Positions 21,970-38,228 of a DNA stretch of 64,000 nt are shown here, one piece after another. The notes below the pieces were generated by a model, which ran no database searches, was not told the DNA's origin, and saw nothing but the letters and a program-made list of their open reading frames with translations. The stretch is from NCBI GenBank assembly GCA_019752115.1, contig JAIEMN010000045.1:124001-188000 (forward strand). Reading direction: 5' to 3'. The number at the start of each line of letters is the position of its first letter. Position 1 is the stretch's first letter. The DNA comes from Gemmatimonadaceae bacterium (GTDB lineage: Bacteria > Gemmatimonadota > Gemmatimonadetes > Gemmatimonadales > Gemmatimonadaceae). The position numbers and the translations under genes were made by a program.

Positions 21970-22371
21970 TTAGACCGCCAGCCGCACGTCTGTCTTGGGG
22001 AAGTCCTCGCCGACACAAAGCAGTGGCCACCCCAATGAGGCCGACACCGCGTAGGCCAGACAGTCACCGTAATTCAGGACGGCCGGCGATCCGACGCCGC
22101 GCCCGAACCGCCGGTGTGCGTCGCGTGCGAACATCGCTTCACGCGCGCTGATGGGCACAACGCGGATCTCCAGACGCTGGAGGAAGGCATCCAGGGCGAG
22201 ATCGCCGCGCGCGCCGTGGCGCGCCCGGAGCACGATGCCCGCTTCCACGAGGGTGGCGGCGCCCACCGCGCGATCGGACGCGGCGTCGAGCACCGACGCG
22301 AGACGTGGCGCCTCCGCTTCTCCGGCGATCAGCGCGATGATCGCCGAACTATCGAGCACGACGCCACTCAT
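21970..22371 (-). CDS. vapC: VapC-like PIN-domain toxin
   Basis: 133 aa, ATG at 22371 overlapping the antitoxin stop as ATGA. PIN residues: Asp in VVLDSSAI, Glu in TLVEAGIVL, Asp in NYGDCLAYA and Asp in VGEDFPKTDV. It belongs to the VapC group that contains GDCLAYA and LCVGxDF motifs and is close in style to the second VapC at 23382. Predicted RNase that slows translation when free of its antitoxin. Confidence 0.88.
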   Translation of the reverse strand: MSGVVLDSSAIIALIAGEAEAPRLASVLDAASDRAVGAATLVEAGIVLRARHGARGDLALDAFLQRLEIRVVPISAREAMFARDAHRRFGRGVGSPAVLNYGDCLAYAVSASLGWPLLCVGEDFPKTDVRLAV

Positions 22372-23381: not shown

Positions 23382-23789
23382 TCAGTACGGGAGCGCGGAG
23401 ACGTCGGTGCTGGCGAAGTCGTTGCCGACGTAGAGCAACGGAAGGCCACGGGTCGTCGCGAGCGCATACGAGAAGCAATCACCGTAACTCAACGCCGCGG
23501 CATGTCGCCCACGCCCAAATCGCCGAGCGCCGTCACGCGCGCAACGCAGCTGCTCGGCATCAAAGGCCACGGCTTCGACGCGGAAATCGCGCAGAAACTC
23601 GTCAAGCAGCAGATCCCCGTTCGCCCCAAACCGCTGGAGCAGCACCAGGGTGCACTCAAGCACGGACGCCGACGACACGAGCCGCGGCCACGCGCTCTCC
23701 ACGGCATCCGCGAGCGCCATGGCGTTCGCTTCCCGGCAGATCATGGCAACAATCGCCGAGCTGTCGAGCACGACACCACGCGAGATCAC
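23382..23789 (-). CDS. vapC: VapC-like PIN-domain toxin
   Basis: 135 aa, GTG at 23789 overlapping the antitoxin stop as GTGA. PIN residues: Asp in [11 protein letters not shown], Glu in [10 protein letters not shown], Asp in SYGDCFSYA, Asp in [10 protein letters not shown]. Same subgroup as the VapC at 21970, only 1.4 kb away, but the partners differ (Rv0623/PSK-type here), so the two modules probably do not share antitoxins. Confidence 0.88.
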
Positions 23790-26151: not shown

Positions 26152-28545
26152 TCAGCGTGCGCGGGGCGTTAGGCCCGCCCGCACGGGCGAGTTCTCCAGA
26201 TGCAATCGCGCGAGCGCGGCTTGAAAGCGCGGTTGCGTGCGCATCGGGTCGAACAGCGGCGACACGAGGACGTTCGAATAGATCAGATCCCCATCGCCGG
26301 CGCTCGCCCGTTCGAGGGCGTCGAGTGCGCCTGCCGTGTCGCCTCGAGCAAAACGCGCGAGGAATCGGCTATTCCAGACACCGCGGACGTTGTCCGGTAG
26401 CGCGTCCACGCGCTTCTCGATTGGCGCCGCAAGGGCCACCTTGCCGCCTCGGCGCATCGCCAGCACCAGCAAACCGAGGCGCATGGGATCGTCGGTCGTC
26501 TCCGCAAAGCGGGTGGCGTACTCCGCCGCCCGCGCATTCTCGCCCGCCGCGAGCAGCGTCAACAACAGCATGCCCTGTCCGCTGAGCACCGACGGCGTCA
26601 GTTCATGCGCACGCACGGCATCGCGGATGCCCTGCTCTCGCTGTCCGGCGAGCACCTCCGTAAGGCCGAGATAGACGAGTCCCGTGGCGAACATCGGGTC
26701 GAGATCCCGGACGCGTTCGAAGGCCCGCTTCGCGGCCGCAATGTCACCGTAGTTCGCCGCCCGGAATCCGAGCTGCCAGTGCGCGATCGTGTTCAGCGAG
26801 TCGAGAGCGATCGCGCGCTGCGCCTCGCGCTCCGCCAAATCCCAATCCAGACGGGCGTGGGCGATGGCGGCGAGCGCGGTATGTCCTTCGGTGCTCAGCG
26901 AGTCCAAGGCCAGCGCGCGTCGAGCGGCCGACTCGGCAATCGGGATGGCGTCGCGCGGGTGGACCAGCTGAAAAAACGGTGATCCGTTCACAGACAGCGC
27001 CTTGCCAGCCCATGCGCGAGTGAACAGCGAGTCGCGCTTGATGGCTTCATCAAAAAAGCGCGCCGCATCGGCGTACACCGGCCCCCGATTGCGATACACC
27101 TGCATGCCACGCAGGTAGTAGTCGTAGGCTTCGGCGTTCGTCGTGCCCGCACTCGTGGCCGTCGCACTCAGCCGCAGTTGCAACTGCCCGGCAATGGCCT
27201 GCGCCAGCTGCTCCTGCATCTTGAACACATCGCGCGCGTCTTCTTCGAAGGTGTTCTGCCAGAGTACGCGCCCGTCGCCCGCGTCGCTCAACTCCGCGGT
27301 GACGCGCACGCGATCGCCAGCTCGACGGAGACTGCCAAGGAGAATCGTGCGCACGCCAAGCGTGTCGCCGAGCTGCCGGGCGGTGAGTGTCGAGCCCTTG
27401 AAGCGCGCGGCGGTGGAGCGGCCGGCGAGGCGCAGCCCCGGGACGCGCGAGAGGACCGTCGTGAGTTCGTCGGCGATCCCGTCAGCGAGATAGACGTTGG
27501 CGGTGTCGCCGCCCACGGATGCGAACGGGATGACGGCGAGCGACGGCGCGGTGCTCGCGGTACCGGCGGCGGCAACCGGTGCGGCGGTGGATCGCGTCTG
27601 CCACCAGCCGTAGGCGGCCGCCGCCGCCACGAACAGTGCCGCAATCGGCACCAGCCGCTTCCACGACGGCGGCGTGATCGGCGCCTCCGCCGTACGCTCG
27701 TTACTCGCCGAGAGCGCAGCGAGCACGTCGTCCATGCGCGCTGGTCGATCGTTTGGGTCCTTGGCCAGGCAGCGCGCGACGAGCGTGCGCACCATCGGCG
27801 TCACCTGCGAAACCGTCACTGCCGGCGCGGGCGTCGCGATATGCGCCGCGGTCATCGCGGCCGGCGTCGTGCGATCGGCGAACGGATGCGCGCCCTGGAG
27901 CAGTTCGTAGGCGAGCACACCCCACGCATACAGATCAACGCGATGATCAGCGTTGATGTCGCCGGTGGCCTGTTCGGGCGCCATGTACGCCGGCGTACCG
28001 ATGGCCATGCCGGCCTGCGTGAGCGTGGCCTCCGGGGCCTGCGTCCGCGAGGCACTGACGGCCTTGGCAATGCCGAAGTCGGCCACCACCGCCGTGCCGC
28101 TCGAGAGCAGCACGTTCTCGGGTTTGATGTCGCGGTGCACAATGCCGCGGGCGTGCGCATACGCCAACGCCTGCGCCACGTTGCGCAGAATGCCGAGCGC
28201 ATCGGCCATGGGGATCGCCCCGCGCGTCATCCGCTCCCGCAGCGACTCACCGGCCACGAACGGCATCGTGAACCAGGGCAGTCCATCGGCGGTGGTGCCG
28301 GCGGTGAGCACGGGCACGATGTGCGGCTCCTGCAGCGACGCGGCGAGCTTGATCTCGCGCGTGAAGCGCTCGCTGCTGAGCCCCGCGGCCAGCTCGGGCG
28401 ACAGGACCTTCACGACCACCTCACGCCCCAGCGCCTCATCACGCGCGAGGAAGACGCGCGACATGCCGCCGCCGCCCAGCTCACGCTGGAGCACGAGGGC
28501 GGCGCCGAGGGCGGCTTGAAGTTGGTCGCGGAGGGGAGAGGTCAT
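26152..28545 (-). CDS. Membrane Ser/Thr protein kinase with TolB-like and TPR domains
   Basis: 797 aa, ATG at 28545 (MTSPLRDQLQAALGAALVLQ). This is a divergent kinase head: GGGGMSRVFLARD instead of GAGGMATVYLARD, VVVKVLSPELAAGLSSERF, then HRDIKPENVLL, DFGIAKAV and GTPAYMAPEQ. The kinase at 44305 has the same style. A hydrophobic helix at about 295-318 leads to a COG5616 module (LAVIPFASVGGDTANVYLAD, VRTILLGSLRRAGDRVRV) and TPR-like helices ending in FDPMRTQPRFQAALARLHL. It is followed by the hairpin/promoter element and Uma2 copy A. Confidence 0.92.
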   Translation of the reverse strand: MTSPLRDQLQAALGAALVLQRELGGGGMSRVFLARDEALGREVVVKVLSPELAAGLSSERFTREIKLAASLQEPHIVPVLTAGTTADGLPWFTMPFVAGESLRERMTRGAIPMADALGILRNVAQALAYAHARGIVHRDIKPENVLLSSGTAVVADFGIAKAVSASRTQAPEATLTQAGMAIGTPAYMAPEQATGDINADHRVDLYAWGVLAYELLQGAHPFADRTTPAAMTAAHIATPAPAVTVSQVTPMVRTLVARCLAKDPNDRPARMDDVLAALSASNERTAEAPITPPSWKRLVPIAALFVAAAAAYGWWQTRSTAAPVAAAGTASTAPSLAVIPFASVGGDTANVYLADGIADELTTVLSRVPGLRLAGRSTAARFKGSTLTARQLGDTLGVRTILLGSLRRAGDRVRVTAELSDAGDGRVLWQNTFEEDARDVFKMQEQLAQAIAGQLQLRLSATATSAGTTNAEAYDYYLRGMQVYRNRGPVYADAARFFDEAIKRDSLFTRAWAGKALSVNGSPFFQLVHPRDAIPIAESAARRALALDSLSTEGHTALAAIAHARLDWDLAEREAQRAIALDSLNTIAHWQLGFRAANYGDIAAAKRAFERVRDLDPMFATGLVYLGLTEVLAGQREQGIRDAVRAHELTPSVLSGQGMLLLTLLAAGENARAAEYATRFAETTDDPMRLGLLVLAMRRGGKVALAAPIEKRVDALPDNVRGVWNSRFLARFARGDTAGALDALERASAGDGDLIYSNVLVSPLFDPMRTQPRFQAALARLHLENSPVRAGLTPRAR

Positions 28546-28723
28546 GCGTGCGCTGGGAGTTTATCGCTGGCAACCGCGCAGGGTAATGCTGGCCGCGCGG
28601 GCGGGCGTCATTTTCGCACGGCGCGGAACGAAGACCGGACGGACGCGCCGGCACCTTGATCCCGGGCCGGCCCCCGCCCAGCTTTCCCACGTCGGTCCTG
28701 CGCGCTTCTGCGCAGCCGGCATT

Positions 28724-28835
28724 CAGTTGGGGAGTAGCCACCCGCCGTTGGCGGGCGCTGCCGATCGTCAACACGAGGCCTTGGCCTCCGGTCGGTGGCA
28801 TGACACGGACACCGTGTCATTGCGCGAGACCACTG
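28724..28835 (+). promoter_or_regulatory. Probable yybP-ykoY (Mn2+) riboswitch
   Basis: The conserved blocks known for this class occur in order: GGGGAGTAGC (28729-28738), GTCAACACGA (28767-28776) and GCGAGACC (28824-28831). Helices: closing stem CAGTTGG/CCACTG (28724/28830), hairpin CCCGCC-GTT-GGCGGG (28741-28755), hairpin GAGGCC-TT-GGCCTC (28775-28788) within an outer CCGA/TCGG pairing, and hairpin ATGACACGG-ACA-CCGTGTCAT (28800-28820). The class binds Mn2+ and usually controls Mn export genes; here it precedes an OmpH/Skp-like gene. This fills most of the 331-bp gap 28546-28876; the rest, next to the kinase start, shows nothing I can name. Confidence 0.83.
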
Positions 28836-28876
28836 CACACCTGTGCCGTGGCTCGCGTTGTCTCCTGGAGGCAGCC

Positions 28877-29470
28877 GTGGGGCGCGGCCATACCCGGACC
28901 GTTGCCATGTCCCGCCCCTCCATTGCCCGTCACGCCGCCGCGATCCTCCTGACGCTCGCGGCTCTCCTCACCCCGGCGTCTCGCGTGCACGCCCAAAAGA
29001 GCGCCGCCGGTCGCCCCACGCGTATTGCGGTCTTCGACTCACGCACCGTGCTCGATTCGATGCCGGAGCGGCGTGGCGCCGAGTCGGAGTTCGCGTTGGA
29101 GCAGGCCAAGGCGCGCACCATGCTGGGGGCGGCGACCGATTCGCTACGCGCGGCCGTCGAGGAGTTCGCCAAGGTGGAGTCGCAGATGACGCCTCGCCAG
29201 CGCGAGGCCACCACCATGCATCTGCGCGCGCGCGAGCTGATGGTGGAGGAGATGGTCGCCCATCTCGAGCAGGTCGTGATGCGGCGACAGGCCGAACTGC
29301 AGGCGCCGCTGCGCGAGCGCATCCTGCAGGCGGCGCGCACGGTGCGCGTGCGCGAGGGCTATGACCTTGTCATCGATCTCGCGAGCGATGGCTCCATCAT
29401 CGATGCCGACGCCCGCATCGATCTGACCGCCGCCATCATTCGCGAACTGCGGAGCGCCGCGCGCAAGTAG
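28877..29470 (+). CDS. OmpH/Skp-like periplasmic protein
   Basis: 197 aa from the GTG at 28877, chosen because GGAGG (28867-28871) sits five bases upstream; an ATG at 28907 is the alternative and also leaves a full signal peptide (SIARHAAAILLTLAALLTPA, ...HAQ). The mature part has the OmpH pattern: RIAVFDSRTVLDSMPERRGA, a long charged helix (residues about 75-150, with AVEEFAKVESQMTPRQ) and a final YDLVIDLASDGSIIDADARI. Skp/OmpH proteins are periplasmic chaperones for outer-membrane proteins. The Shine-Dalgarno lies in CTCC-T-GGAG, so it could be sequestered by the riboswitch expression platform. Confidence 0.8.
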   Translation: MGRGHTRTVAMSRPSIARHAAAILLTLAALLTPASRVHAQKSAAGRPTRIAVFDSRTVLDSMPERRGAESEFALEQAKARTMLGAATDSLRAAVEEFAKVESQMTPRQREATTMHLRARELMVEEMVAHLEQVVMRRQAELQAPLRERILQAARTVRVREGYDLVIDLASDGSIIDADARIDLTAAIIRELRSAARK

Positions 29471-29487: not shown

Positions 29488-30861
29488 TTACTTCCGCGTC
29501 GCGAACTCGGCGTCCACGTCACGCTCCCACGCCTGCAGCTTGAGCGCGAGCGCGCGCACCACGTCGGGGCGGAGGCGGGCCATGTCCCGCCGCTCACCCG
29601 GATCGCGGCGCACGTCATAGAGAAACATGTGGTTGGACTCGACCACGAGCTTCGTGTCCCCGTCGCGCACCGCACGCATGTCCCGTTTGGCCTGCACCGA
29701 GCGCCAGAACAGCGTGCGGGGCGTGCGCGGCGCGCGCCCCTCGAGTACCGGCCAGAGATTCATCCCGTCGAGCTTTGCGTCAGCGGGGACGGGCACGTGT
29801 GCGGCGGCCAGCACCGACGCGCTGAGGTCCATCGTGATGCCGACCTGCGGCGTGACGGTCCCGGCGCGAATATGCCCCGGCCAGCGCATGATGGCCGGCA
29901 CGCGAATCCCGCCTTCCCACGTCGAATACTTGCGACTGAAGAGCGGCGTGTTGTCGGAGAGCCACTCGCCGCCGTTGTCATTCGTGAAGATCACGATGGT
30001 GTGGCGGGCGATCCCGTTCCGTTCGAGCGCGGCCAGCACGCGGCCCACGTGCCGGTCCATCGCTTCGACCATGCTGGCATAGTCGGCGCGCGAGCTGGTC
30101 AGCGAGTCGGCGGGTTTGAGAAAGCGCGCGTTGCCCACCGCCTTGCTTGGCGTATCGGGGCGCTGAAACGGCCAGTGCGGCGCGTTGAAGGCCACATCGA
30201 TGAAGAACGGCGCCTTGGCGTGCGCGTCGATGAACGCGATGGCCTTGTCGGCGATGAGCGCCGTGCTGTACCCCTCGAGCGAGACGCGCGCCTCGTTCTC
30301 CCAGAGATCGGGCTCGCCGCGGCTGTCGGTGTGATGCCAGTAGTCGTGATAGCCGCTCTTGAGGCCGAAGAAGTAGTCGAAGCCGTGCGCCAGCGGGCTT
30401 TGCGAGGGCTCGTAGCCGAGGTGCCATTTGCCGACGAGCGCCGTGGCATAGCCGCCTGCCTTGAGCAAGCGGGGCAGGGAGTACGGGGAGGCCTCGAGCC
30501 CGCGTTCCCCCGGGCTGAACTGCGCCGTGGTGGCCGGCAGTGGCTGCTCCACGCCATAGCGCTGCTGATAGCGCCCGGTGATCAACCCGGCGCGCGTGGG
30601 CGAGCAGGTGGTGCCGTTGGCGTAGAAGTCGGTGAAGCGGACCCCTTCGCGTGCGAGCCGGTCGATGTTGGGCGTGCGGATGTCCTTCGCGCCGTACACG
30701 CCGAGGTCGGCATAGCCCATGTCGTCGGTGATGATCAATACGACATTGGGGCGGCCGGCCGGCGTCTGCGCGGGAAGCGGAGCGCCGAGCAGCGCCGCCC
30801 CAACGAGGACGCGGAGGGAGCGGAGGGCGCGGAGGGGACGCGGAGCGCGGAGGGTGAGCAT
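29488..30861 (-). CDS. Secreted sulfatase (arylsulfatase-like)
   Basis: 457 aa, ATG at 30861, signal peptide ending LLGAPLPAQ. Alkaline-phosphatase-superfamily sulfatase: NVVLIITDDMGYADLGVYG with the metal Asp pair, TTCSPTRAGLITGRY with the CxPxR site whose Cys becomes formylglycine, GKWHLGY and FTNDNGG. The length is normal for the family. An anaerobic or FGE-type maturase is not in the window. The region coding for the signal-peptide n-region (30812-30856) is a GC-rich 9-bp tandem repeat giving LRALRSLR. The gene is divergent from the NTF2-like gene. Confidence 0.9.
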   Translation of the reverse strand: MLTLRAPRPLRALRSLRVLVGAALLGAPLPAQTPAGRPNVVLIITDDMGYADLGVYGAKDIRTPNIDRLAREGVRFTDFYANGTTCSPTRAGLITGRYQQRYGVEQPLPATTAQFSPGERGLEASPYSLPRLLKAGGYATALVGKWHLGYEPSQSPLAHGFDYFFGLKSGYHDYWHHTDSRGEPDLWENEARVSLEGYSTALIADKAIAFIDAHAKAPFFIDVAFNAPHWPFQRPDTPSKAVGNARFLKPADSLTSSRADYASMVEAMDRHVGRVLAALERNGIARHTIVIFTNDNGGEWLSDNTPLFSRKYSTWEGGIRVPAIMRWPGHIRAGTVTPQVGITMDLSASVLAAAHVPVPADAKLDGMNLWPVLEGRAPRTPRTLFWRSVQAKRDMRAVRDGDTKLVVESNHMFLYDVRRDPGERRDMARLRPDVVRALALKLQAWERDVDAEFATRK

Positions 30862-33056: not shown

Positions 33057-35420
33057 TCAGTCGCGCAGGCGTTCCGGAATGCCAATGCGGGCCAGCAGCG
33101 CCTGATACCGCGGCTCCTGACGGAAGCGGAACAGCGGCGGCATGCCATTGAGCATCTGCAGCAGGTCGAGATCGCGCGCCGTCACCGCGCGGTCGAACAT
33201 GGCGTACGCCGCGTCGCGCTCGCCGAGCAACAGCAGCAGGCTGGCGCGCTGGGCGAGACGCGGGTCCCCGTCCAGGGCCTTGAGCGCCCGTCGCACACCG
33301 GCCGTGTCGCCGCGGTAGGACGCCAGGAATCCTTCATTCACGAGGCGCACCCAGTAGTCCCCCCCGGCGACGCGCACCGCGCGGCGGTGCGCACTGTCGG
33401 CGGCGGCATGCTGCCCCTGACCGGCGAGCGCGAGCGAGAGGATGTCGAAGATCTCGTAGAACGTGGTGTCGGATGCGATGCCGGTACGCGCAGACTGCAC
33501 GGCCTCGGCGGCGCGGTTCGAGGACCAGAGCCCCCATGCCAGATCGCTGCGCCACTGCGCGGTGGTGGGCTCCTGATCGACCAGCCGCCGTGCGCGCGAG
33601 ATCGCGGTGCTGTCACCGGATTCCCACATGGCCCACACCGCCATGCCCACGCCAAGCGACGACGACGGACGCGCGTCGGCGGCGGCGAAGTCGGCGAAGG
33701 CATCGGCAAACTCCCACCGGTCGTGCAACCGGGCGACGCCTCGCGCATAGAAGGCATCGCCCAAGTCGGGATCGAGTGTCAGGGCACGATCGGCCGCGCG
33801 CATGGTGGTGCGATAGGCGGAGTCACGCGGCGCCGTCTGATAGATGAGCGCATACGCGTGCGCGATGGCCAGCCCCGCCCATGCGGGAGCGTAGGTGGAA
33901 TCCATGGCCAGCGATCGACTCAGGTGATCGACGGCCTTCCGCAGCCCGTCCGCCGTGCGCAACGCTGCCGCTTCCTGACCGAGCAGATATTGCGCATACG
34001 CGCGCGGATCGACCTGACGCGCGGCGGCGAGCCGGCGCGTTTGGTCAGGCGTGAGCCCCGCGCGAATGCCCCGCGCGATCTCTCGCGCCACTTCGCGCTG
34101 CAGGGTGACCACGTCGCGCGCCGGTCGTTCGAACGTGCGCGACCAGAGGGTCTCATCGCTGCGGGCGTCGATGAGTTCGGCCGAGAGCGAGACGACCTCG
34201 CCGCCGCGCAGGACGGCCCCCGACACGATGGCATCCACGCCGAGCTCGTTCGCCAGCTCGCGAATCGGCTTGGTCGAGTTGCGGTACGGCGCGACGGCGC
34301 GATAACCAAGTACGCGGACACCGGCGTCGGCCAGCACACCAATCACTTCACGCGTCATGCCATCGGCAAAGAAGCGTTGCGCGGTATCGCCGGTCTGGTT
34401 GTCCATCGGAATGACGGCGATGCGACCAATCGGCGTCCCGGGGGCCGCCGGAGCGGCTAGCGTGCGCGTTCGCGACTTCCACCACGCGGCGGCACCGCCC
34501 AGCAGGATCGCCGCCGCGGCGACCATCCCGACGAGGCGACGGGCGTGTCCGCGCGTGCTGGGGCGAGGCAACGGTGCCGACGGTTGTGACGTCGTGGCCT
34601 CGAACGTGTCCACGAACTGCGCAGCCGGCCACGGGCGCGCCGATGGATCCTTGGCGAGCGCCTGCGTGATGGCGGCATCCACGCCGGGAGAGACCTCCGG
34701 CCGCACCGCCGAGAGGCGCGGCACCGCGCCGATGAGATGCTGCTGCGTGATCTGGGCCACCGTCTCGCCGGTGAACGGTGGCTCGCCGGCGAGCATCTCG
34801 TAGAGTACGCAGCCGAGCGAGTAGAGATCACTGCGGCCGTCCACGTTGGTGTCGCCCACGGCCTGCTCGGGACTCATGTAGAGCGGCGTCCCGACCGCGA
34901 AGCCCGTCTGCGTCAGGCGTTCGCTGCCGGTGGCGGCGACGGCGCGCGCGATGCCGAAGTCGGCCACCACCGCATGCCCGCGCTCGAGCAGGATGTTCTC
35001 CGGCTTGATGTCCCGATGCGCGATGCCCCGTTCGTGCGCATAGCCCAGCGCGTCGGCGATCTCGCGCGCGAACTGCAGCGCCAGTGCCACCGGGAGGCGC
35101 CCGTCGCGCCGCAGCCGATCGCGCAGCGTTTCGCCATCCACGAAGGGCATGACGTAGTAGAGCAATCCGTCGGCATCGCCCGAATCGTAGAGCGGCAGGA
35201 TATGCGGGTGTCGCAGCGCCGCAGTGGTGGCGATCTCGCGCAGGAAACGGTCCGACCCTACCGCATAGGCGAGCTCCGGCCGCAGCACCTTGATGGCGAC
35301 CACCCGGTCGTGCTTGAGGTCCTGGGCGCGAAACACCGTCGCCATGCCACCCGCGCCAAGTTCGGCGTCAACGCGGTAGCGGCCATCCAGGGCGGTGGCG
35401 AGACGATCCCGAGTGCTCAT
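33057..35420 (-). CDS. Membrane Ser/Thr protein kinase with TolB-like and TPR domains
   Basis: 787 aa, ATG at 35420 (MSTRDRLATALDGRYRVDAE). Kinase motifs: GAGGMATVFRAQD, VAIKVLRPELAYAVGSDRF, GIAHRDIKPENILL, DFGIARAV, GTPLYMSPEQ. A hydrophobic helix at about 293-316 (LVGMVAAAAILLGGAAAWW) is followed by the COG5616-type module (IAVIPMDNQTGDTAQRFFAD, VDAIVSGAVLRGGEVVSLSA) and TPR-like repeats (YAPAWAGLAIAHAYAL, ALTLDPDLGDAFYARGVARL). It lies 58 bp downstream of a propeller kinase and 100 bp upstream of Uma2 copy B, all in one direction. Confidence 0.92.
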   Translation of the reverse strand: MSTRDRLATALDGRYRVDAELGAGGMATVFRAQDLKHDRVVAIKVLRPELAYAVGSDRFLREIATTAALRHPHILPLYDSGDADGLLYYVMPFVDGETLRDRLRRDGRLPVALALQFAREIADALGYAHERGIAHRDIKPENILLERGHAVVADFGIARAVAATGSERLTQTGFAVGTPLYMSPEQAVGDTNVDGRSDLYSLGCVLYEMLAGEPPFTGETVAQITQQHLIGAVPRLSAVRPEVSPGVDAAITQALAKDPSARPWPAAQFVDTFEATTSQPSAPLPRPSTRGHARRLVGMVAAAAILLGGAAAWWKSRTRTLAAPAAPGTPIGRIAVIPMDNQTGDTAQRFFADGMTREVIGVLADAGVRVLGYRAVAPYRNSTKPIRELANELGVDAIVSGAVLRGGEVVSLSAELIDARSDETLWSRTFERPARDVVTLQREVAREIARGIRAGLTPDQTRRLAAARQVDPRAYAQYLLGQEAAALRTADGLRKAVDHLSRSLAMDSTYAPAWAGLAIAHAYALIYQTAPRDSAYRTTMRAADRALTLDPDLGDAFYARGVARLHDRWEFADAFADFAAADARPSSSLGVGMAVWAMWESGDSTAISRARRLVDQEPTTAQWRSDLAWGLWSSNRAAEAVQSARTGIASDTTFYEIFDILSLALAGQGQHAAADSAHRRAVRVAGGDYWVRLVNEGFLASYRGDTAGVRRALKALDGDPRLAQRASLLLLLGERDAAYAMFDRAVTARDLDLLQMLNGMPPLFRFRQEPRYQALLARIGIPERLRD

Positions 35421-35478: not shown

Positions 35479-38118
35479 CTACGGTCGCGGCACCCGGCGC
35501 ATCAGCTCCTCGCGCCACCCCAGAATGACGCGCGAGGGCAGCGCACCCACGCGCTCAAGCGGCTCGATCATGAGGAATTGCGAGCCATCGGGGGTGACGT
35601 CGTACCCCGTCGTACGCTGGTCGTTGATCCGTCCGGCCGTGTTGCGGGAGAAGAGGCGAACCGGCCGCGACGGCGTCCCGCTCGCCGGATCGAAATCGGC
35701 GGCGAAGACATCGCGACCCTTGCGAAAGACAATCTCGCGACCGCCGCGCGTGAAGCGCGGCTGATCACCCCCGTCGATGGAGACCTGCACCCGCGCCGTG
35801 CCATCGCGACGTCGCGCCATGACCTGCGTGCGGCCGTCGGGTTGCTTCTCGGAGAGGGCGAGCCAGACCCCGTCGGGAGAGAAGACGCTCCCGAGCTGCA
35901 GGCTGTGTGTCTTGTCCAGCGCCTGCGACCTCCGCGTGGCGAGATCCAGGGTCCACGCGTGGTCGCCCTTCTCGACCTCGGTGTAGAGCAATGTCGAGCC
36001 ATCCGGGGCGATGCCGGTCGGGTGCTTATCACTGCCGGAACGCAGCAGCGTGTCGACCGTCGTGCCCGTGATTGCGATGCGCGCCAGATCATACGCCGGA
36101 GTCTCGAGCGCATGGAACAGCGATTTGCTGTCTGGTGCCCACACCGGCGCAAACGCGGCCCCGTTGAACGCACTCAGCTGACTCAGTGAACCGCGGCGGC
36201 GATCGAAGAGCCAGAGCGACCACGGTTCCGGCTGCGTGCGTGTCAGGGCGATCCACTGCCCATCGGGTGACAGGCGCGGATCGGCCCACGCCGCCAGATC
36301 CGAGAAGGCTTCGCGATTCGTGCCGTCGCGGGCCACCCAGACCACTCGCGATCGTTCATCAAACTCACTGGCCTTGATGTAGACCAGGTCGCCACGCGAA
36401 GACACGTCGAAGGCCACCGAGCCATCGGTCTGCAGTGAGAACACATCCTCCACCACGGGCGTGGGCGGACCGGTCAGCTTGAGCGACGCCGCATCGAACG
36501 GGGCGGCGAAGATCGCCCCGCCGCGACCGAAGAGCAGATAGCCCGGCGCGACATACCGCGGAAAGAGTGCGTTCTCCACGATCACCGTCACCTTGCCAGT
36601 GGCGAGATCGAGCGCCTGAATGCTCGAGCGCGTGACTGGTGCCGAGTAGGCGCCGTAGAGCAGCGTCTTTCCGTCGGGCAGCAGCGAGGGATACCAGTGA
36701 CCGAACTCATGGCGCGCGGCGTTGGGCTTTGAGACCACTTCCATCGCGCCGCCCTCCTTCAGGCGCGACAGACCGCTTGAGGCCTCGCCAGAGAAGTAGA
36801 TGTATCCGTCTGGCCCGATCGTGCTGAGTGCGGTGTTGGCGTGCTCCGCGATCATGGTCGCGGACCCGCCCTCAACGGGGATCTTGAACAGTGCGCCGTC
36901 GCGGTTGAAGAAGATCCACTTCCCATCGGGCGAATAGGTCGGCGCGATCCCACCTTCGGAGCCGGGGACCGGCACAATCGCGGATGACCCCATCGACCGT
37001 TGGACAAGCAGGCGCCCCTTCACGGAATCCACGATCGACTGCAGCACGGCGTGCCCATCGGGCGCAATCGCAATCAGCGCCTTGGCCGACGCGCGCGGCC
37101 CGGCGTTGAAGGCGAACTCCACGCGTGACGTGCCGTCGGCGCTCGACGTGCGCTGGCCAACGAACCAGCCACCGATCCCGGCCGCGAGGGCCATGAGGGC
37201 GGCGATGGGCAGCCAGCGCGTCGCGCTCCCACGCGCGGCTGGCGTTCTCGCTCCGGCGATCGGGCGTGGCGTGCGTTGCTCTCCGAGCAGCGCAGCCTTG
37301 AACGCCTGAATGGTGGGGAACCGATCGGCCGGGAGCTTCTGCAAGGCGGTGAGCACGGCGGCGTCGACCTGTTCCGGCACGGCTGGGCGCACGACCATCA
37401 GCGAACGCGGCGCCTCGGTGAGCAGCTTGGCGACAATCGCCTGCGCGTTCGCGCCGGTGTACGGCGGCTCGCCGGCGAGCATCTCGTAGAGCACCGCGCC
37501 CACGGCGTAGATGTCGGCCCGGGCGTCGATGACCTTGTCACCCATCGCCTGCTCGGGCGCCATGTACTGCGGCGTGCCGAGCGAGAGCCCCGTCTGCGTC
37601 ATGCGGGCACCGCCGGCCTGTTGCACGGCGAGTGCAATACCGAAGTCGGCCACCAGCGGATGACTGCCGTTGGCGGACTGCTGCAGCAGGATGTTTTCCG
37701 GCTTGATGTCGCGATGCACGATGCCGGCCGCGTGCGCCTCTGCGAGCGCATCGCTCACGGCGGTGGCAATCGCGATGGCGTCGGCAACCGGTAGCTGTGT
37801 TTCGCGCGTCAGTCGCGCCCGCAGCGTTTCGCCGCGCACATACGGCATGACGTAGTACAGCAGCCCATCCACCGCGCCGCTGTCGAGCAATCCCAGAATG
37901 TGCGGATGCTGCAACTGTGCCGTCGTGCGGATCTCGCTCAGAAAGCGATCGCCGCCCAGCGCTGCACCGAGATCGGGGTGCAGCACCTTGATGGCCACAT
38001 CGCGGCCATGGCGCAGGTCGTGGGCGAGGTACACGGTGGCCATGCCGCCGGCGCCGAGTTCACGGTCGACGCGGTAGCGGTCAGCGAGGGCGGTGGTGAG
38101 GCGGGTGAGCGTACTCAT
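35479..38118 (-). CDS. Membrane Ser/Thr protein kinase with PD40/WD40-like propeller
   Basis: 879 aa, ATG at 38118 (MSTLTRLTTALADRYRVDRE). Kinase motifs are complete (VAIKVLHPDLGAALGGDRF, HRDIKPENILL, DFGIALAV, GTPQYMAPEQ). Between HRDIKPENILL and DFG the loop is longer than in all other kinases here (QQSANGSHPLVADFG), a local insertion of about four residues. A hydrophobic helix at about 301-321 (LPIAALMALAAGIGGWFVG) leads to propeller repeats (YSPDGKWIFF, LSPDGQWIAL, WAPDSKSLFH, FSPDGVWLAL). It is the first gene of a kinase-kinase-Uma2 run and is divergent from Uma2 copy D. Confidence 0.93.
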   Translation of the reverse strand: MSTLTRLTTALADRYRVDRELGAGGMATVYLAHDLRHGRDVAIKVLHPDLGAALGGDRFLSEIRTTAQLQHPHILGLLDSGAVDGLLYYVMPYVRGETLRARLTRETQLPVADAIAIATAVSDALAEAHAAGIVHRDIKPENILLQQSANGSHPLVADFGIALAVQQAGGARMTQTGLSLGTPQYMAPEQAMGDKVIDARADIYAVGAVLYEMLAGEPPYTGANAQAIVAKLLTEAPRSLMVVRPAVPEQVDAAVLTALQKLPADRFPTIQAFKAALLGEQRTPRPIAGARTPAARGSATRWLPIAALMALAAGIGGWFVGQRTSSADGTSRVEFAFNAGPRASAKALIAIAPDGHAVLQSIVDSVKGRLLVQRSMGSSAIVPVPGSEGGIAPTYSPDGKWIFFNRDGALFKIPVEGGSATMIAEHANTALSTIGPDGYIYFSGEASSGLSRLKEGGAMEVVSKPNAARHEFGHWYPSLLPDGKTLLYGAYSAPVTRSSIQALDLATGKVTVIVENALFPRYVAPGYLLFGRGGAIFAAPFDAASLKLTGPPTPVVEDVFSLQTDGSVAFDVSSRGDLVYIKASEFDERSRVVWVARDGTNREAFSDLAAWADPRLSPDGQWIALTRTQPEPWSLWLFDRRRGSLSQLSAFNGAAFAPVWAPDSKSLFHALETPAYDLARIAITGTTVDTLLRSGSDKHPTGIAPDGSTLLYTEVEKGDHAWTLDLATRRSQALDKTHSLQLGSVFSPDGVWLALSEKQPDGRTQVMARRRDGTARVQVSIDGGDQPRFTRGGREIVFRKGRDVFAADFDPASGTPSRPVRLFSRNTAGRINDQRTTGYDVTPDGSQFLMIEPLERVGALPSRVILGWREELMRRVPRP

Positions 38119-38170
38119 GACGGCTGAAGATGCACCGCAGGACGCGCGGCCGCTGCGTGGTTCGATTTCA

Positions 38171-38228
38171 CGGTGTCTCGCCGGTGTCTCGCATTGGAAT
38201 GACACGATGCGCGACGATTTGATGACAC
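38171..38228. promoter_or_regulatory. Repeat cluster in the divergent kinase/Uma2 promoter region
   Basis: Two perfect tandem 11-bp copies of CGGTGTCTCGC (38171-38181, 38182-38192) are followed by two inverted-sense ATGACAC copies (38199-38205, 38222-38228), so GTGTC/GACAC half-sites face each other. It lies in the 178-bp gap between the kinase start at 38118 and the Uma2 start at 38297. It looks like a multi-site operator; the binding protein is unknown. Confidence 0.45.

Follow-up and report, generated by a model that had tools for sequence, protein, structure and literature searches.

A yybP-ykoY riboswitch in the leader of an OmpH/Skp-like gene and its proposed envelope-proteostasis regulon in Gemmatimonas-like bacteria

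The leader of an OmpH/Skp-like gene in a Gemmatimonadaceae bacterium contains a complete yybP-ykoY aptamer (28719–28841, plus strand, in the window, the 64,000-nucleotide stretch of contig JAIEMN010000045.1 analysed here), and a known riboswitch class is thereby found with a new, envelope-proteostasis regulon. The yybP-ykoY element is a very common riboswitch whose known targets are mainly manganese exporters and TerC proteins; the target in the window is unusual, as the sequence-only reading of this stretch had pointed out, in that the switch precedes an OmpH-family gene. The explanation that we consider highly probable as a whole is that of a Mn2+ riboswitch, ON in the presence of manganese, which controls an OmpH/Skp-like chaperone within this regulon.

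The single, monocistronic transcript lies between two minus-strand genes, a divergent Ser/Thr kinase gene (26152–28545) and a convergent sulfatase-like gene (29488–30861), and comprises the leader and its sole gene (28907–29470, plus strand), which encodes an OmpH/Skp-family paralogue with a signal peptide. The family assignment of the target, made earlier by inspection, was borne out by PF03938 (E 1.1e-19, 71.5 bits against a cut-off of 32.4), with positions 1–141 of the 141 in the profile covered. Paralogues were found in nine further genomes of the genus (a term used in the counts for the group holding the window genome and the Gemmatimonas sp. and Gemmatimonadaceae records) at 54–64% identity in one comparison, and a second comparison with paralogues in relatives gave 52–59%; identity to the canonical Skp of its own genome (68% GC) is 29%. 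The canonical gene stands at an aptamer-free locus (L178) in the order BamA, Skp-like ORF, LpxD and LpxC; the window gene lies outside the bamA-skp-lpxD context and is the second OmpH/Skp copy of the genome. The paralogue is present in 10 of 30 genomes of the genus. A candidate sigma70-like promoter (TTGATC-17-CAGCTT, 28656–28684, plus strand) can be proposed from the sequence 44 nt upstream of the GGGGAGTAGC block, and a TTGAC-type −35 element occurs at a similar position in several other aptamer loci. A possible in-frame GTG start (28877–28879, plus strand), placed 5 nt past GGAGG, may be an alternative to the ATG at 28907.

The three conserved blocks of the class (GGGGAGUAGC, GUCA(A)nAC and GCGAGACC) are present in order within a four-way junction, at the positions where the sequence-only reading had put them. 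In the window they appear as GGGGAGTAGC (28729–28738), GTCAACACGA (28767–28776) and GCGAGACC (28824–28831), all on the plus strand, the first and the third being invariant in nine homologues, and a search for the three blocks at this spacing gives a single match in the window and none in 100 dinucleotide shuffles. The helices, of which the sequence-only reading had counted four in order, all form (P1.1, P1.2, P2, P3.1, P3.2 and P4), with the support of covariation in the nine homologues. The 5' strand of the switch helix P1.1, the L1 loop and P1.2 occupy 28724–28738, P1.1 pairing with 28830–28835 and P1.2 with 28824–28825, and the third block together with the 3' strand of P1.1 spans 28824–28835. 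The P2 hairpin (28741–28755) is followed by the covarying helices P3.1 and P3.2 (28757–28799), with the L3 loop at 28768–28774, and by P4 (28800–28820), in which two-sided changes are seen at 7 of 9 pairs; all of these lie on the plus strand. Over the nine homologues two-sided changes affect 14 pairs, a number reached by 0 of 500 shuffles, and pairing is found in 91.7% of the cells, compared with 33–46% for slid partners. In 34 sequences the two-sided changes extend to 33 of 38 pairs, in an alignment that had been fitted to the structure. The adenosine that contacts Mn2+ through its N7 atom is A41 in L. lactis and A48 in X. oryzae (PMC6754395). A28770, in L3, aligns to this Mn-sensing residue and is invariant in the nine homologues, as is the L1 adenosine A28733.

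At its gathering score (45 bits) the Rfam model RF00080 gave no match in the window, and the check by this family that the sequence-only reading had proposed thus failed at the threshold, while a relaxed search returned 16.9 bits (E 0.013). The release-15 model, of 177 positions, under-reports the class. It places E. coli mntP at 41.6 bits, below the gathering score, and misses E. coli alx; as both are excluded along with the window, the threshold does not define the class, and whole groups of real members are missed by it. The view that the lack of an Rfam match means the lack of a riboswitch was rejected, given that validated E. coli members also fall under the gathering score.

Because of the weakness of the release-15 model, own covariance models were built, and these match the aptamer strongly and over its full length. 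Model R1, trained on nine aptamers upstream of OmpH paralogues with the window itself among them, gives the window a self-trained score of 124.6 bits; with it, the E. coli mntP and alx aptamers are recovered at 36.5 bits (E 3.6e-7) and 34.7 bits (E 1e-6), respectively. Model R3 was made from 34 TerC-, HtpX- or CDF-linked aptamers, including those of E. coli mntP and alx, and holds no OmpH- or barrel-linked sequence; in this out-of-sample comparison the window aptamer reaches 92.3 bits (E 1e-23), with a small leak in that the R3 alignment (A7) was fitted to a model, R2, that had been trained on a set containing the window. This score and the conserved Mn-sensing A28770 place the element in the yybP-ykoY class, as first proposed. 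The genome-wide scans with R2 were lossy, having missed HtpX and SPFH switches that were found by direct R3 searches of the loci, and for this reason absences in the R2 scans were not used as evidence.

It is unlikely that the fold was kept for sensing another ion or cue, such as pH or another divalent metal, outside any manganese regulon. Such a change would suit targets that are envelope genes and not exporters, and pH can influence the E. coli members alx and mntP (PMC9603457), but the Mn-sensing adenosine and the L1 and L3 blocks are unchanged and the out-of-sample model, made of exporter- and HtpX-linked members, fits the window very well. We infer that the aptamer binds Mn2+.

Downstream of the junction, the 3' strand of P1.1 is shared with an alternative hairpin (anti-P1.1, 28824–28856, plus strand, −20.6 kcal/mol) that rivals P1.1 and has no U-run after it. 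A small hairpin predicted by folding (28857–28876, plus strand) then carries a GGAGG ribosome-binding-site candidate (28867–28871). A corresponding hairpin, formed by the P1.1 3' strand with a downstream GTGC(C)GTGG, is possible in most ompH- and barrel-linked leaders. A U-run after this competing hairpin was found in 0 of 16 such leaders, and their output is thus probably translational or Rho-dependent. In 12 of 27 TerC/HtpX leaders the equivalent hairpin is U-tailed, as an intrinsic terminator, which leads us to read the hairpin state as OFF and Mn2+ as the ON signal. U-tailed terminators are frequent in HtpX leaders. Folding of the leaders of three relatives (G013, G016 and G005) indicates that in the P1.1 state the freed strand can capture the arm closing the ribosome-site hairpin, which suggests translational control. 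Constraint folding of the window leader gave no clear difference in ribosome-site accessibility between the two states, and in each of the modelled states the GGAGG ahead of the possible GTG at 28877 sits within a hairpin.

In the mechanism that we propose, at high Mn2+ the ion would dock L1 against L3 through A28770 and stabilise P1.1, which would take up the GCGAGACCAC strand, so that the hairpin at 28824–28856 would be blocked and the gene expressed; at low Mn2+ this hairpin would form and expression would be low. Control in the window would probably act on the initiation of translation, through Rho, or both. The control of E. coli mntP is translational and Rho-dependent (PMC11647493), and a similar mode is expected at the window because its leader has no U-run; by this analogy, Rho-dependent control of the window leader is possible. 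The opposite direction, a Mn2+-dependent repression acquired through a changed expression platform that lost its U-run, appears quite unlikely: the missing U-run in all 16 leaders and the ambiguous ribosome-site model of the window would accommodate it, but the arm capture in the P1.1 state of the three relatives points to activation, and in relatives the equivalent hairpin serves as a terminator. To our knowledge, the yybP-ykoY members with tested expression are ON switches, which counts against repression as well.

The linkage between the switch and this particular gene is kept across relatives. The aptamer lies upstream of the OmpH paralogue in 9 of 9 testable loci, the window included (a count uncorrected for shared ancestry); all 21 of the other OmpH-family loci, which include bamA-skp-lpxD in the window genome, lack it. 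It is placed directly upstream of ompH in the window and three relatives, and is separated from it by one gene of about 150 codons in five genomes (G013, G025, G016, G005 and G028). In a further genome (G007) the aptamer and a PH-domain gene are on one contig end and the OmpH gene on another, and the PH-domain gene presumably lies between aptamer and ompH there too. Where checked, the stop of the intervening gene overlaps the ompH start (ATGA), which suggests translational coupling. The intervening protein has no Pfam match; its AlphaFold model shows a PH fold (pLDDT 80), with Foldseek matches to bacterial and eukaryotic PH domains. An exporter between the switch and ompH was considered and rejected, as the intervening gene encodes a soluble PH-fold protein. 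Comparison of synteny in relatives, recommended from the outset, thus shows the same paralogue behind the switch, directly or through the PH-domain gene, and never an exporter.

A second aptamer in the window genome (contig C33, locus L071, 28948–29076, minus strand; also L179) precedes a PH-domain gene and an outer-membrane barrel gene that overlap by ATGA. The barrel has no Pfam match, and a sequence search of the structure database with the barrel and PH proteins gave nothing significant; its AlphaFold model has 12 strands (pLDDT 83) and matches in Foldseek outer-membrane barrels such as NalP, the COG4313 channel, FapF and PcoB. Of the 10 genomes that carry the OmpH paralogue, 7 also have the barrel; among the 20 others of the genus, 0 do (Fisher p 6e-5, ancestry uncorrected). 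Direct R3 searches located a strong aptamer at 11 of 24 HtpX loci of the genus, and the aptamer is present at 7 of 8 Band_7/SPFH lipoprotein loci; it stands before HtpX (L188–L198, L207) and before the Band_7/SPFH lipoprotein gene, followed by a small barrel gene (L180–L187). No HtpX or SPFH orthologue was detectable in the window genome, so that its switches are those of the chaperone and PH-barrel loci only.

TerC is present in these genomes at other loci, and the aptamer was found at 0 of 38 tested TerC loci of the genus (0/22 plus 0/16). The GDT1/UPF0016 exporter (PF01169) is absent in all 31 genomes searched. Outside the genus, the genes that follow the aptamer are TerC, HtpX, HtpX-TerC or a CDF exporter, and in one further genus (G136) it is located (L080:3409–3527, minus strand) upstream of a three-gene envelope-like operon encoding a barrel-like protein, a lipoprotein-like protein, both without Pfam match, and lastly a homologue of the barrel. 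At another locus (L137, genome G102) the aptamer is followed, by eye, by a universal-stress-protein-like ORF.

The target in the window would accordingly be one of a lineage-specific Mn2+ regulon that includes the Skp paralogue, the outer-membrane barrel, HtpX and the SPFH protein, with TerC outside, and this distribution suggests a direct role of manganese in adjusting the upkeep of the cell envelope. The broader proposal is that the Mn2+ riboswitch of Gemmatimonas-like bacteria now acts as the master switch for envelope quality control and outer-membrane assembly, in a regulon (Skp paralogue, barrel, HtpX, SPFH and PH partners) which TerC has left; we hold it at about even chances. The loci per genus are few and related. 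The sequence-only reading had left two alternatives side by side, a control of the envelope chaperone by manganese and the loss of an exporter gene with a new gene moving in. The latter, in which the aptamer would be a relic that no longer matters, is very unlikely: the TerC genes behind the same aptamer in other genera mean that TerC could have been the ancestral target, but nine genomes keep the aptamer, with compensatory changes, upstream of the same paralogue, with or without the PH-domain gene between, several such switches in the genus all stand upstream of envelope genes, and TerC is present elsewhere without the switch. Control of the chaperone is favoured on these grounds.

The same aptamer is found in E. 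coli mntP and alx, the latter of the TerC family, and the alx leader has a competing hairpin (AGACC...GGTCT) of the same kind as that of the window; the E. coli targets are Mn exporters, whereas that of the window is an OmpH/Skp paralogue. The HtpX-TerC operons of other Gemmatimonadota (L041, L114, L132, L134 and L135) also combine the aptamer with the competing hairpin, and HtpX is a target both there and in the genus of the window; unlike in the window, their hairpin often has a U-run, as an intrinsic terminator, and an exporter-family gene is included. In B. subtilis a riboswitch of this class controls ykoY (meeY, TerC family), so that there the switch precedes the TerC gene, whereas in the window genus it precedes quality-control genes and not TerC. 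MeeY co-purifies with SecY/SecDF, PrsA, HtpX, FtsH and flotillins, a partner list shared with MeeF (PMC10550928). The kinds of partner (a post-translocation chaperone, HtpX and SPFH proteins) are those encoded under the Gemmatimonas switches, TerC being switched in sister genera, a likeness that we regard as an analogy. In the open-access literature we found no report of OmpH/Skp, HtpX, SPFH or Gemmatimonas targets of yybP-ykoY, and subscription journals may hold one.

A lineage with the switch on a chaperone, a barrel, HtpX and SPFH proteins would link cytosolic Mn2+ directly to envelope proteostasis, and Mn2+ would then serve as a cue for the folding and metalation of the secretome, beyond Mn export. 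According to a recent proposal, exported proteins are metalated at the Sec translocon by TerC proteins acting with HtpX, FtsH, PrsA and flotillins (PMC10550928); the Gemmatimonas targets fit this idea and make it genetically testable. The questions raised are which exported proteins need Mn2+ and whether an excess or shortage of Mn2+ burdens outer-membrane assembly. The orphan barrel and PH-domain families gain a first functional lead.

Elsewhere in the window, inspection by eye showed two PIN-domain (VapC-like) toxin ORFs (21970–22371 and 23382–23789, minus strand) with small antitoxin-like ORFs upstream. The Ser/Thr kinase gene that neighbours the leader is one of three large genes of this kind placed close together (26152–28545, 33057–35420 and 35479–38205, minus strand), the C-terminal parts of whose products appear TPR-like or WD-like by eye.
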